DNA from: Planctomycetota bacterium
Lineage (GTDB): Bacteria > Planctomycetota > Brocadiia > JAJRTI01
Assembly: GCA_024278415.1 (NCBI GenBank)
Contig: JAJRTI010000475.1
Span: forward strand, 1-5,375
DNA: 5,375 nucleotides
Direction of reading: 5' to 3'
Positions 1,709-5,375 of the stretch are shown here, in pieces. Position 1 is the stretch's first letter. Each line of letters opens with the position of its first letter. The notes beneath the pieces are model-generated. The model saw nothing but the letters and a program-made list of their open reading frames with translations, had not been told where the DNA came from and ran no database searches. Both the position numbers and the translations under genes were made by a program.

Positions 1709-1770
1709 GTTTGGCCGGACAAAACTCGGAGAAGAACTGCCCTTTGCAGGATGCAACACGAACGCGTACG

Positions 1771-1799
1771 AGTCTATCCTCGCTGCCGGGCACTGTCAA
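1771..1799 (-). promoter_or_regulatory. Sigma70-type promoter of the mntA-hepT operon
   Basis: On the minus strand the sequence reads TTGACA (1799-1794), a 17-nt spacer, then TAGACT (1776-1771). The -35 box matches consensus fully and the -10 box matches 4 of 6 positions. Transcription would start near 1764, giving a leader of about 56 nt before the ATG at 1708. It points only toward mntA. I found no equally good promoter for the divergent arabinofuranosidase gene in the 174 bp between the two genes. This is a motif match without experimental support. Confidence 0.55.
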
Positions 1800-1882
1800 G
1801 GTTGCGACTGGGGCAAGAGTCTGGTATCCCTCTTGGCTGTGCCGATTGCCCCATGCCGCGGCCCGCACGCGACCGAGCCGCG

Positions 1883-3820
1883 ATGCGAAACCTCCCTTTC
1901 GCCCTCCTTGCCGCTATGCCCATCTCCACACACATCTGTTGCCTCCTCATTCTGCCCGTGGCTGCATGGCCGCAGGAGAACCTCCTCCTCAACCCCGGCT
2001 TCGAGTCCGGCGTCCAGGCCTGGCGCACGCTGGGCAGCCCGCGCTACCAGGTGCTCGCCGCGGCCGGGCGCAACGGCTCCAAGGGCCTGCGCTACCAGAA
2101 GCTCAAGGACGATGGCGGACCCAAGGAGAACTCGCACTTCGACCAGGAGGTCGACGTCGAGCCCCAGTCATTCTACGTGGCGAGTGCGTGGGTGAACGCG
2201 GGGGCCGGCCTGCGGCCGGTGCTGCGCATCGCGACAATGGACTGGGCCACGCTCGCGCTCGCCATCGCTGAGCCGAAGCCAGGCTGGCAGGAGATCCGCA
2301 CGCAGGTCAAGACCGGCCAGCACAAGCGCCTGCGCTTCCAACTCTTCCTGGGCGCCAAGACCGACCGCCGCGAATCCGCGATCGGCACGACTCGCTGCGA
2401 CGACGCGGTCCTGCGCAAGTGCTCGCCGCAGGAGATGAAGGCGATGCGCTCGTGCAACGTGACGGTCGACGTCGGCAAGAGGCTGCGCCCAGTCAACCCG
2501 CTCTTCTTCGGCGTGAACTCGCTCTTCTGGATCGAGACCGACCAGGCGGTTGCGGACGGCAAGATCGCCAAGCAACTCAGGGCCATGCCCTGCACGCTGC
2601 TGCGCTACCCGGCCGGCGAGGCCGCGGATAACTACCACTGGAAGACGCACACGCTGAACAACAAGAAGAGGTGGCCCTCCCGCGACACGCCCGACAACAT
2701 GGACACGGACGAGTTCATGGCCTGGCGCAGCCAGATCGGAGCGGAGCCGATCTTCGTGGTGAACCTCGAATCGTGCTACGTGAACGGCGATCCCGCGGCT
2801 GGGCCCAAGGAGGCCGCGGAGTGGGTGCGGTACTGCAACAAGGACAAGGGCTACAACGTGCGCTACTGGGAGATCGGCAACGAGACCTACCTCAAGGGCA
2901 CGTACTTCCCCATGACCGCCAAGCAGTACGCGGACGCGTTCGTGAAGTTCGCCAAGGCCATGAAAGCCGTGGACCCGACGATCCAGATCGGCGCGATCGG
3001 CCCCATGGGGATCGACGCCCCCGCGGCGATCGAGCGAAACAAGCGCGGGCCGGCGTGGTGGCCTACGGTCCTCGATGCGGCCGGCGACTTGCTCGGGTTC
3101 GTGGTCGTGCATCGCTACTATAACGTAGCGGATTACCAGCGCTTCGAGTGGGGCGCGCTGCGCGTGGACGAGCCCATCGCCAAGCTCCGCAGCTTGCTCG
3201 AAGAGCGCTACCCCGGCCGCTACATCCCCATCGCTCTAACCGAGTGGAATACGTGGCGCAAGACGAAGGCCCGCGGCATCGCGCAAGCGCTCATGGTCGC
3301 GGAACTCATCGGCCGCTACCTCGAGGGGGGCGTGGACATGGCCAACTTCTGGCCCATGCGCCTCACCGGCAAGAAGTCCACGTTCCGCTCGCTGCTCGAT
3401 AGCGACACCAACGAGCCGCGTCCTCCCTATCACGTGATGAAGCTCTTCGCATCGAACCTCGCGCAAGGCTGGTCGCAGGATCTTGTGGCCGCGCCCATGG
3501 CCAAGGTTCTTGCGCGCGCGTCGCACTTGGTCCAGGCCGACGCGTCGAGCGTGCAGGTCTACACGTGCGCCGGCCTGAGCGCCGATGGCCGCAAGCTGGC
3601 GGTCTTCCTCGTGAACAAGTCGACGTGGCCGCAGGGCATGGAGGTGAAGGTGAGCATCGCCGGCTTCCCGACGTCGGCCGCAGAGATGACCACCTTGACC
3701 GCGCCGGCGCTGGGGTCGGAAGACGTGGTGCTAAAGACGCTGACGCTCAAGCCCATAGACGGCCAGATGCAACTCAAGCTGCCGCCCCATTCACTGACAG
3801 TGGTGCAGGTCCACGAGTAG
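1883..3820 (+). CDS. Secreted CBM-linked alpha-L-arabinofuranosidase-like glycoside hydrolase (GH51-type, clan GH-A)
   Basis: This 645-residue protein probably hydrolyses terminal alpha-L-arabinofuranosyl groups of plant polysaccharides outside the cytoplasm. Domains in order: a signal peptide at about 1-28 (hydrophobic ICCLLILPVAA, cleavage likely after V-A-A28); a CBM4/9-like beta-sandwich at about 32-178, opening NLLLNPGFESG...W and closing CDDAVLRK; a catalytic (beta/alpha)8 barrel at about 190-525; and a C-terminal beta domain to 645. GH51-like signatures are LRYPAGEAADNYHW near 240, YWEIGNE with acid/base E334, VVVHRYYN, and ALTEWNTW with nucleophile E454. Substrate specificity is inferred. 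The frame is open back to 1751, but ATG 1883 is the first start that gives a signal peptide; ATG 1916 is a possible shorter start. No clear Shine-Dalgarno precedes either. The gene diverges from mntA. It ends in TAG, and no convincing terminator hairpin with a T-tract follows. Confidence 0.85.
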   Translation: MRNLPFALLAAMPISTHICCLLILPVAAWPQENLLLNPGFESGVQAWRTLGSPRYQVLAAAGRNGSKGLRYQKLKDDGGPKENSHFDQEVDVEPQSFYVASAWVNAGAGLRPVLRIATMDWATLALAIAEPKPGWQEIRTQVKTGQHKRLRFQLFLGAKTDRRESAIGTTRCDDAVLRKCSPQEMKAMRSCNVTVDVGKRLRPVNPLFFGVNSLFWIETDQAVADGKIAKQLRAMPCTLLRYPAGEAADNYHWKTHTLNNKKRWPSRDTPDNMDTDEFMAWRSQIGAEPIFVVNLESCYVNGDPAAGPKEAAEWVRYCNKDKGYNVRYWEIGNETYLKGTYFPMTAKQYADAFVKFAKAMKAVDPTIQIGAIGPMGIDAPAAIERNKRGPAWWPTVLDAAGDLLGFVVVHRYYNVADYQRFEWGALRVDEPIAKLRSLLEERYPGRYIPIALTEWNTWRKTKARGIAQALMVAELIGRYLEGGVDMANFWPMRLTGKKSTFRSLLDSDTNEPRPPYHVMKLFASNLAQGWSQDLVAAPMAKVLARASHLVQADASSVQVYTCAGLSADGRKLAVFLVNKSTWPQGMEVKVSIAGFPTSAAEMTTLTAPALGSEDVVLKTLTLKPIDGQMQLKLPPHSLTVVQVHE

Positions 3821-3889
3821 AGGGACTGGGCAGCTCTGGGGTCGATGCGGCGTGGCCAACATTATGCAAGATCCAAGCCGCCTCCATCT

Positions 3890-3917
3890 TTGACAACCCA
3901 TCGAATCGCCCTATAAT
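3890..3917 (+). promoter_or_regulatory. Near-perfect sigma70 promoter, now separated from its likely gene by a mobile element
   Basis: TTGACA (3890-3895) and TATAAT (3912-3917) match both consensus boxes exactly, with a 16-nt spacer. The next bases are the 9-bp duplication TAATCAATT (3914-3922, overlapping the -10 box) and then the element at 3923. Removing the element and one duplicate copy would place the -10 box 36 nt upstream of the ATG at 4370, an ordinary leader that includes the AGGAGAGG ribosome site at 4355-4362. Today the distance is 452 nt. The reconstructed site also contains CTATAATCAATTATAG, a 16-nt inverted repeat over the -10 box that could have been an operator. Promoter activity and the former linkage are inferences. 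Confidence 0.6.
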
Positions 3918-3922
3918 CAATT
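3914..3922. repeat. Left copy of 9-bp target site duplication TAATCAATT
   Basis: TAATCAATT directly abuts the left terminal inverted repeat at 3923 and is repeated exactly at 4330-4338, directly after the right terminal repeat. AT-rich 9-mers are rare in this GC-rich DNA, so chance placement at both ends is unlikely. Confidence 0.75.
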
Positions 3923-4329
3923 GGGCGTAACTCGCGCGCCGCTCTCTTAGACGATCTTGGTCTGCCCCATACGAGCGTCTGGGCTTCCCTCTTGATGCCC
4001 CTATCGACGCAGTGGAGGCAAATGTGGTGACTACAACAAGTACGGAAACCAAGCTGGCTAATGGCGCGACGAAGTCGCACAGGCATAAAGCCTTGGGCTT
4101 TAGCCCAAGGTCACCGATGCCAATGGGCACAGCGCTCTGAAGGAGCGCCGGAACGGGGCACGGAAACGGGGCCGCATGCGGCGGGACATCGGCCGGCTCC
4201 CCCGCGCCTACAGCGCGGGGGCCTGTGCCTGCCGCCTTTGTCCTTGGGCTGAAGCCCAAGGCTATACCCCGGCACCCCGTCGGGGTGCGTGCATGAGCCT
4301 TCGTATTGGGCGGAGCGCGAGTTACGCTC
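3923..4329 (+). mobile_element. MITE-like non-autonomous element with terminal inverted repeats and a hairpin-composite interior (copy 1)
   Basis: The 407-bp element starts GGGCGTAACTCGCGC (3923-3937), and its right end read in reverse complement is GAGCGTAACTCGCGC (4329-4315), a 14/15 match. Exact 9-bp direct repeats, TAATCAATT, flank it. The right-hand 150 bp (4178-4327) recurs inverted at 5226-5375 with about ten mismatches by my count, and the homology stops at the same terminus, which fixes the boundary independently. No open frame inside resembles a protein, so mobility would need a transposase supplied in trans. The left third (about 3938-4062) has no obvious palindromes beyond a weak AGACG/CGTCT pair; the rest is a chain of hairpins. 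A 9-bp duplication occurs in several IS families, so I do not assign one. Confidence 0.72.
4066..4288. repeat. Array of six different short hairpins inside element copy 1
   Basis: The palindromes in order are: GCGAC-gaa-GTCGC (4066-4078); CCTTGGGCTTTAGCCCAAGG (4091-4110); GCGCTC-tgaag-GAGCGC (4132-4148); a 9-bp stem CCCCCGCGC/GCGCGGGGG around ctaca (4199-4221); CCTTGGGCTGAAGCCCAAGG (4242-4261); and GCACCCC-gtc-GGGGTGC (4272-4288). The second and fifth are near-identical copies that differ only in the loop. The others are unrelated in sequence but share a design of 5-9 bp stems with 2-5 nt loops. None has a T-tract, so they are not typical terminators. Spacing is irregular. Confidence 0.8.
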
Positions 4330-4338
4330 TAATCAATT
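4330..4338. repeat. Right copy of 9-bp target site duplication TAATCAATT
   Basis: This is an exact copy of 3914-3922, directly after the right terminal repeat. It is followed by ATAG, which with the left flank restores the palindrome CTATAATCAATTATAG when the element is removed. Confidence 0.75.
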
Positions 4339-4369
4339 ATAGACAGTTCCTCCCAGGAGAGGCGAGAAC

Positions 4370-4618
4370 ATGGATAGCACATTGAGTTACATCGAAGCCC
4401 TTGCGCGCGAGACGAAGAAACCGCAAGAGGAGGTCATGACACTAGCCTTCCGGGTGGGGGCGAGGCAATTGTGGCGAGAGCATGTGCTTGGCCAATACTT
4501 GCGCAGGCAAGTATCGCGAGAGGCAGCGGTCGAAGCGGTGGGCATTGACTAGGTGGAGTTGGCGGAGAAGCAGCGCGACGCCATGCAGGAGGATATCGCA
4601 TGGGCAATGGGGGAATAG
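4370..4618 (+). pseudogene. Small antitoxin-like gene interrupted by an in-frame TAG
   Basis: ATG 4370 follows AGGAGAGG (4355-4362) with 7 nt spacing, a strong ribosome site. Sixty codons run to TAG at 4550-4552 (...ISR-like segment SREAAVEAVGID, stop). The same frame then continues without a break as VELAEKQRDAMQEDIAWAMGE to a second TAG at 4616-4618. The composite 'VGID-x-VELAE-Q-AM-ED-AWA' resembles the C-terminal half of small helical antitoxins that precede PIN-domain toxins, where x is usually Trp or Leu; this is from memory of the family. TGG or TTG to TAG is a single change. The protein is therefore probably truncated from about 81 to 60 residues. Its presumed promoter is cut off by the element upstream. 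A genuinely 60-residue protein is the alternative, but the in-frame family-like tail argues against it. Confidence 0.6.
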
Positions 4619-4752
4619 TGGCGCAGAAGGAGACGGCGATCATGGACCTCAGGGAATCCGTAGCCATCGCCACGGGCGCGTATACGCGGACGCTGATCGC
4701 CCTGGGGAATACCACATCAGCCATCAACCATCCGCCGCCACCGCGACGATAG
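4600..4752 (+). CDS. Short 50-residue ORF overlapping the antitoxin-like gene, possible remnant of its partner
   Basis: ATG 4600 sits 7 nt after a perfect AGGAGG (4587-4592) and overlaps the end of the preceding frame by 19 nt, as the second gene of a toxin-antitoxin pair often does. The product begins MGNGGIVAQKETAIMDLRES and ends HPPPPRR at TAG 4750-4752. An internal ATG at 4642 also has a good ribosome site (AGAAGGAG, 4625-4632). I do not recognise the sequence: it lacks the opening hydrophobic strand and Asp of a PIN toxin. Its last 29 bases run antisense into the aspartoacylase fragment that ends at 4724. This suggests the original 3' end was lost at a junction near 4710-4726. It could also be non-coding. 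Confidence 0.3.
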   Translation: MGNGGIVAQKETAIMDLRESVAIATGAYTRTLIALGNTTSAINHPPPPRR

Positions 4753-5223: not shown

Positions 5224-5375
5224 GGGCGTAACTTGCGCTCCGCCCAATATGGAGGCTCATGCACGCACCCCGACGGGGTGCAGGGATATAGCCTTGGGCT
5301 TCAGCCCAAGGACAAAGGCGGCAGGAACAAGCCCCCGCGCTGTAGGCGCGGTGGAGCCGCCCGATATCCCGCCGC
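5224..5375 (-). mobile_element. Second copy of the hairpin-composite element, inverted, truncated by the window end
   Basis: The copy starts GGGCGTAACTTGCGC, the same terminus as copy 1, and 5226-5375 is the reverse complement of 4178-4327 with about ten mismatches in 150 and no gaps. It contains the same three hairpins in order: GCACCCC-gac-GGGGTGC (5265-5281), CCTTGGGCTTCAGCCCAAGG (5292-5311) and CCCCCGCGC/GCGCGGTGG (5332-5353). The end itself can fold (GGGCG 5224-5228 with CGCCC 5241-5245). The nine bases before it are TCACCTCAT (5215-5223). If this is an insertion like copy 1, they should reappear beyond the far end, outside this window. Confidence 0.7.

Follow-up and report, generated by a model that had tools for sequence, protein, structure and literature searches.

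The window, by which we mean the whole stretch of 5,375 nucleotides analysed here (Planctomycetota bacterium, contig JAJRTI010000475.1), contains a 407-bp non-coding segment with sharply defined ends and a body of hairpins, which raises the question of how the segment arrived and whether the hairpins belong to whatever brought it. The best reading, to which we give a probability of about three in four, is a DDE-type MITE carrying a REPIN-like doublet of RF01687 (Acido-Lenti-1) modules. The MITE would have been cut and inserted at its 20-bp terminal inverted repeats (TIRs) by a DDE-type enzyme whose gene lies elsewhere, leaving a 9-bp target duplication; the cargo would be an inverted doublet of RF01687 modules, and a single-strand (HUH, Y1) transposase, of the IS200-like 'subclass 1.2', would use these as its REP-like hairpins. 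If the modules do belong to a Y1 transposase in this way, one mobile repeat sits inside another here. We regard the hairpins as probably a second mobile repeat, of REP type and Y1-linked, and not as part of the transposon.

The element has matching ends, a target duplication and a second copy

The element (copy A) spans 3923-4329, 407 bp, between exact 9-bp direct repeats. Its left end, GGGCGTAACTCGCGC from 3923, agrees with its right end, GAGCGTAACTCGCGC read inward from 4329, at 14 of 15 inverted positions, and the inverted match reaches 17 of 18 at 3925-3942 / 4310-4327. The features of the two copies, read directly from the sequence, are:

3914..3922, no strand: left target-site duplication, TAATCAATT (direct reading and shuffle test)
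3923..3942, plus strand: left terminal inverted repeat, GGGCGTAACTCGCGCGCCGC (direct reading, inverted match)
3943..4062, no strand: left spacer, free of hairpin modules and of Rfam matches at gathering score
4310..4329, minus strand: right terminal inverted repeat, read inward, GAGCGTAACTCGCGCTCCGC (direct reading, inverted match)
4330..4338, no strand: right target-site duplication, TAATCAATT (direct reading and shuffle test)
5224..5375, minus strand: second copy (copy B), inside which the contig stops, matching the right end of copy A at 141/152 positions
5224-5243: terminal repeat of copy B, GGGCGTAACTTGCGCTCCGC

The original prediction of 15-bp terminal repeats with a 9-bp duplication is borne out at these exact coordinates: the window holds one 9-bp direct repeat (copies 60-1000 bp apart) lying flush with TIRs that match at 14 or more of 15 positions, while 300 dinucleotide-preserving shuffles gave no such arrangement with TIRs of at least 14/15, one with at least 12 and 22 with at least 10. 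The second copy, whose homology had been said to stop at a shared terminus, opens with GGGCGTAACTTGCGC at 5224, the same terminus as that of copy A, and is identical to it at 141 of the 152 positions in 5224-5375. Two copies thus lie within 5.4 kb, copy B being cut off by the contig end at 5375, short of its other end and any duplication there; assemblies tend to stop inside repeats.

The 407-bp body also appears non-coding, as had been proposed. The one overlapping ORF scanned, 3774-4259 on the minus strand, has no Pfam match, and the window encodes nothing homologous to the Y1 or IS4 proteins; tblastn of 11 Y1 proteins against the window gave no hit better than E 0.08, and no Y1 gene was found between the TIRs. 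The short non-coding body between TIRs and the flanking target-site duplication are those of a MITE.

The cargo is an inverted doublet of three-hairpin modules

The body of the element consists of an inverted pair of ~95-bp three-hairpin modules, in the layout TIR, 120-bp spacer, module (-), 35 bp, module (+), short spacer, TIR. Modules were located with a covariance model, R1, made from 26 extended RF01687 regions of six other genomes, none from the window. These 26 aligned regions have a ~95-nt three-hairpin module in common, the stems of which covary, with two-sided changes in 9 of 17 predicted pairs. R1 finds three full modules in the window, each at E 2e-8 or better:

4063..4157, minus strand: hairpin module 1 (three hairpins), inverted relative to module 2 (R1 41.9 bits, E 7e-10)
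4193..4289, plus strand: hairpin module 2 (R1 36.1 bits, E 2e-8)
4242..4287, plus strand: RF01687 (Acido-Lenti-1), covering two of the three hairpins of module 2 (41.3 bits)
5264..5360, minus strand: hairpin module of copy B (R1 43.8 bits, E 2e-10)
5266-5311, minus strand: RF01687 in the module of copy B (42.3 bits)

Both RF01687 matches exceed the family's gathering score of 37, and the left module, 4063-4157, is not reported by Rfam at that threshold. Compared with the family as described in the available text of its 2010 publication as a candidate structured RNA (PMC2864571), the window thus has two of the three hairpins above threshold in module 2 and in copy B. Rfam files RF01687 as 'Gene; sRNA'; a 2026 paper calls its function little known and proposes that it takes part in the regulation of protease genes near it (PMC13298647). 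Here, by contrast with its filing as an sRNA, it is part of a larger three-hairpin module found in mobile elements and beside Y1 genes. In the accessible portions of the open-licence literature naming Acido-Lenti-1, to which any novelty is provisionally limited and in which the family is listed, annotated or described as little known in function, we found no tie to a Y1 transposase or to MITEs. The original prediction that this is not a known element holds for the TIR, which was found in no other element in the collections searched, and fails for the hairpins, which are Rfam RF01687.

The modules at 4063-4157 (-) and 4193-4289 (+) form the inverted doublet that marks GTAG REPs and REPINs. Of the 39 modules examined, which come from six genomes and the window, 36 have TAG on the opposite strand at the foot of the central hairpin, against a background of 1.6%. 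The foot is best written NTAG, with GTAG in 13/39 modules and ATAG in 18/39, and the fourth letter of the module foot is mostly A or G; it resembles the GT[AG]G foot of REPs without equalling it, and in the window, where the feet are ATAG and AAAG, the REP foot itself was not found. As far as the consulted sections of PMC3733652 go, GTAG REPs and REPtrons likewise form inverted doublets with the tag outside, and copies flank a Y1 gene; unlike them, our modules have the NTAG foot, three hairpins each and enclosure within TIRs and a target duplication. According to the same sections, long palindromes in A. variabilis and H. neapolitanus enclose some of the REP dimers, the nearest precedent we saw for a REP doublet within inverted repeats (PMC3733652).

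Some RF01687 modules lie beside genes for Y1 transposases

At one RF01687 locus of another genome, L072, an IS200-like gene lies between modules, and the L072 protein as sole query matched 13 of 370 loci, all 13 being RF01687 loci. With 11 Y1 queries, a homologue was found beside 12/150 RF01687 loci (11 genomes, 315 kb) versus 0/126 controls (666 kb), the gene lying 17-381 bp from the RF01687 match; a Pfam check of 10 of the 11 queries identified every one as Y1_Tnp, PF01797. The Fisher P of 6e-4 for this linkage is rough, because the queries were drawn from RF01687 loci, the control loci were not genome-matched (52/126 being viral contigs), control locus L023 itself has an RF01687 match and the RF01687 match of L225 is below the cut-off. 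In 10 of the 12 loci R1 modules lie at most 100 bp away on both sides of the Y1 gene, and in 8 loci the nearest modules are arranged as module (-), gene, module (+), the polarity of the window doublet.

A reverse test gave the same association: three plasmid Y1 places in two Bacteroidota records, found by protein similarity alone, all adjoin modules. Those of L371 are strong on both sides of the gene (E 1e-9 and 5e-11), those of L372 weak on both sides (E 0.0025 and 0.0011), and L373 has a module doublet on one side only (E 3e-5 and 0.0012). No Y1 relatives were found in viral contigs or in phages.

All 11 Y1 proteins carry the Y---Q--HH signature. In the text available to us, PMC6006769 gives this as the mark of TnpA-Y1 subclass 1.2, a low-copy group close to the IS200/IS605 transposases, generally without typical terminal IS200 structures and mostly of Cyanobacteria and Bacteroidetes. 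The module-linked proteins share that signature and differ from the reported subclass in that modules flank the gene, Planctomycetota included. An Rfam 'sRNA', RF01687, thus has the look of a REP repeat that belongs to an orphan transposase subclass and rides here in a MITE; the Y1 enzyme may be what mobilises the modules.

The same architecture recurs with different ends

RF01687 matches were found in 98 of 392 Planctomycetota genomes (78 above cut-off) and in 29 of 148 Bacteroidota genomes (14 above cut-off), and copy number is high, many Planctomycetota genomes having at least 15 places. In one Bacteroidota genome, G505, 37 RF01687 matches were counted among those listed, around L199 and L228, several of them grouped within 150-760 bases on one long contig.

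Among the matches listed, we sampled 121 Planctomycetota loci (39 genomes), leaving out RF01687 places at contig ends in G116, G132 and G147, and 30 Bacteroidota loci; some counted loci overlap (L044/L072 in this test, and L199/L228). A locus passed if TIRs of at least 12/15 lay within 2 bases of an exact 8-14 bp duplication around the RF01687 match. The window passed, as did 7/121 Planctomycetota loci (4/39 genomes) and 1/30 Bacteroidota loci. As a control, left flanks were paired with the right flank of a different locus, from the same genome if possible; 20 such trials gave 0 or 1 of 121, with a mean of 0.4. A run with slightly different limits gave 8/70 loci (the window included, one locus twice), and every one of five Markov controls gave 0/70. 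The Bacteroidota locus, L224, was dropped since R1 finds no module in it. As 7 of 121 loci pass this strict test, most modules are not visibly in such elements.

TIRs and duplications enclose full modules at L037, L054, L097, L098, L100, L103, L198, L322, L325, L333 and in the window. The ends are CAATGTCATTGAATTAAG and its variants at L054, L100, L103, L322, L325 and L333 (four genomes) and CTTGTCTTTGCACACA at L037 and L098 (one genome), and the window end, GGGCGTAACTCGCGC, is the third well-supported TIR type with module cargo. Single weaker cases have GGCYCTGTCGAAA at L097 and AATRGYGTTCAGC at L198; since each is just 12/15 at an offset of 2, near the control level, one of the two could be chance. 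The closest analogue of the window element, L322, is 307 bp long, with 18-bp perfect TIRs, an 11-bp duplication and two outward modules.

Modules within TIRs are single or double, and doublets point inward or outward; the CAATGTCATTGAATTAAG-type TIR also bounds module-free elements with duplications (L324, L327, L330, L331). This variable number and orientation, together with the module-free elements of one TIR family, marks the modules as separable cargo. The prediction of a non-autonomous, hairpin-bearing transposon gains support here, as TIR-modules-TIR with a 9-11 bp duplication recurs in other genomes. At L103, where an empty site was sought, the left flank is kept in the relative G052 without the element, and the junction has diverged and is not clean.

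An IS4-family sequence has ends close to those of one TIR family

A TIR two letters off the commonest CAATGTCATTGAATTAAG-family form, CAATGTCATTAAGTTAAG, bounds a 1494-bp sequence in the relative G170 (L321), which encodes a 434-aa DDE transposase (PF01609; NF033592 'IS4 family', 173 bits where the cut-off is 115). The ends of the small elements L330 and L331 are exactly CAATGTCATTAAGTTAAG, and an exact 10-11 bp duplication is present in 8 of the 19 loci of the CAATGTCATTGAATTAAG-type family that were scanned. The flanks of L321 resemble the palindromic target of L330-L332, with no exact duplication found. An intact IS4-family sequence is thus bounded by a close variant of one module-carrying TIR, its small relatives show duplications of 10-11 bp, and elements of the CAATGTCATTGAATTAAG-type family were probably carried by a DDE enzyme; G170 is the only relative in which an intact parent for that family was found. 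DDE_Tnp_1 genes in G155 and G050 were also considered as parents and rejected, as they are not bounded by the TIRs of the small elements there.

The window's TIR differs in sequence from that of L321, and its duplication is of 9 bp; by analogy, a DDE enzyme would act on it too. Searches of the genome contigs and the 392 Planctomycetota genomes found no transposase gene or autonomous parent with the window's TIR. The exact 20-mer of the TIR has three matches in genome contigs of 84,980 species: none of the three loci was seen as such an element or has RF01687, one (L003) is by eye part of another intergenic hairpin, and their genomes gave no blastn match to the window element. Blastn of the element against the 392 Planctomycetota genomes returned only local similarities of 20-51 bp, in 28 genomes, and plasmids gave no blastn match. 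In viral contigs the 18-mer of the TIR had 0 matches, and the 15-mer occurred once in each of 52 stretches, which were reused as control loci. A pattern of the body also had 0 matches.

Allowing 2 mismatches, the TIR pattern is found in 258/392 Planctomycetota genomes, in most of which the reversed pattern, by eye, is at least as frequent. It exceeds this control in G074 (37 vs 11), G035 (10 vs 3) and G308 (7 vs 0), with smaller excesses in, for example, G296 and G088. In G074 the matches include 22 identical copies that form the interior of a different, unrelated repeat, and in G035 and G308 they are scattered and dissimilar. The window's TIR is new to the collections searched. The 4.4-Mb G074 has an abundant unrelated repeat with GCGCAAGTCGCGCGCCGC, in at least 22 exact copies (L341, L344, L347 and other places).

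The hupL MITE of Thiomargarita, with 19-bp TIRs, 10-bp direct repeats, many copies and no known parent insertion sequence in the available part of its description (PMC4853749), is likewise non-coding and flanked by direct repeats. Unlike it, the window element carries a conserved hairpin doublet that is found also outside the element and with other TIRs.

Alternative explanations and significance

That the hairpins are a transcribed small RNA, making the element a mobile or duplicated RNA gene used by host or transposon, is the rival with most in its favour and is still unlikely. Rfam's class and the two-sided changes in 9/17 pairs accord with it, as does a promoter match of 12/12 pointing into the element; yet hairpins that a Y1 enzyme recognises in single-stranded DNA would be expected to covary too, the promoter is not part of the element but sits at its insertion site, and inverted modules around a Y1 gene, high copy number and carriage within differing TIRs all fit a repeat. 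Still less probable is that the TIRs are tyrosine-transposase ends, the element being a 'TIRtron' relic without its gene and not of DDE type. Y1 genes flanked by TIRs have been described, some in Acidobacteria, in the sections of PMC3733652 available, and the modules are linked to Y1 genes in other genomes, but the same modules are also carried between TIRs that closely resemble those of an IS4-family sequence. Y1 enzymes are not known to make duplications of 9-11 bp.

The near-palindromic joined flanks, CTATAATCAATTATAG, make short repeats at the site less surprising, so that 9-bp repeats and inverted ends could in principle have arisen by chance or from a local palindrome with no transposition; given 0/300 shuffles and a second copy that stops at the same base, we think this very improbable. 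We return to the DDE-type MITE with a REPIN-like cargo, for which a broader claim can be put forward tentatively, leaning somewhat against it: RF01687 might be the missing substrate of the orphan Y1 subclass 1.2, its doublets repeatedly hitch-hiking in MITEs of different DDE enzymes, with three TIR types well supported as vehicles and two more in single weaker cases. If true, two kinds of transposase would be recurrent partners, the single-strand hairpin repeat of one travelling in the cut-and-paste vehicles of the other, several of which land in palindromes, and the orphan subclass would gain a directly testable candidate substrate.

Taken by itself, a new MITE family would have limited interest; the identity of the cargo is the more useful result. 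Should RF01687 be a REP-type hairpin of a Y1 transposase, annotations as an sRNA or in protease regulation would need rethinking. One repeat family in differently ended elements would also suggest how REP-like repeats reach genomes that lack their transposase.

Insertion site and neighbouring genes

A promoter-like site adjoins the left end of the element:

3890..3917, plus strand: TTGACA-16-TATAAT, its -10 box overlapping the left duplication (consensus match only)

The site matches the consensus at all 12 positions, with a mean of 0.2 such sites in shuffles of 3780-4700. By the usual promoter spacing, the start would fall in the first bases of the window element. The insertion would have occurred just downstream of the -10 box and placed the start of the downstream transcript within the element; judged from the sequence, this transcript would run on through it towards a 60-aa ORF at 4370.

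By eye, the joined flanks of the window element pair at 14 of 16 positions. Across 11 elements, six have palindromic targets at P<0.02 (window 0.012) and the other five do not (P 0.09 to 1.0), giving a Fisher's combined P of 3e-6, which is a lead only, because the 11 were picked after the pattern was seen, four are of one TIR family and four of one genome, and one is L224. L103, L054, L100, L109, L130, L321 and L330-L332 lie near the centre of palindromes such as CCCTCC-TTGCGAA-GGAGGG, and a GGTTTGCAACC-type palindrome recurs in the DNA on either side of the IS4-family L321 and of the small elements L330-L332, which are 100 bp long.

Just downstream of the element, the 60-aa ORF (4370-4552, plus strand) has AGGAGAGG before its ATG, by eye, and ends in TAG; it has no Pfam match and one family match far below cut-off, and is possibly an antitoxin-like or decayed gene. 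Upstream, 1751-3820 (plus strand) encodes an arabinofuranosidase-like glycoside hydrolase (PF22848, precomputed) whose nearest named proteins are from Planctomycetota, at 52-54% identity, and which has a match at E<=1e-40 in 1/392 Planctomycetota genomes. Before it lies a HepT toxin / MntA antitoxin pair at 783-1208 and 1205-1759, both on the minus strand with a four-base overlap (NF047751 96 bits, NF047752 77 bits).
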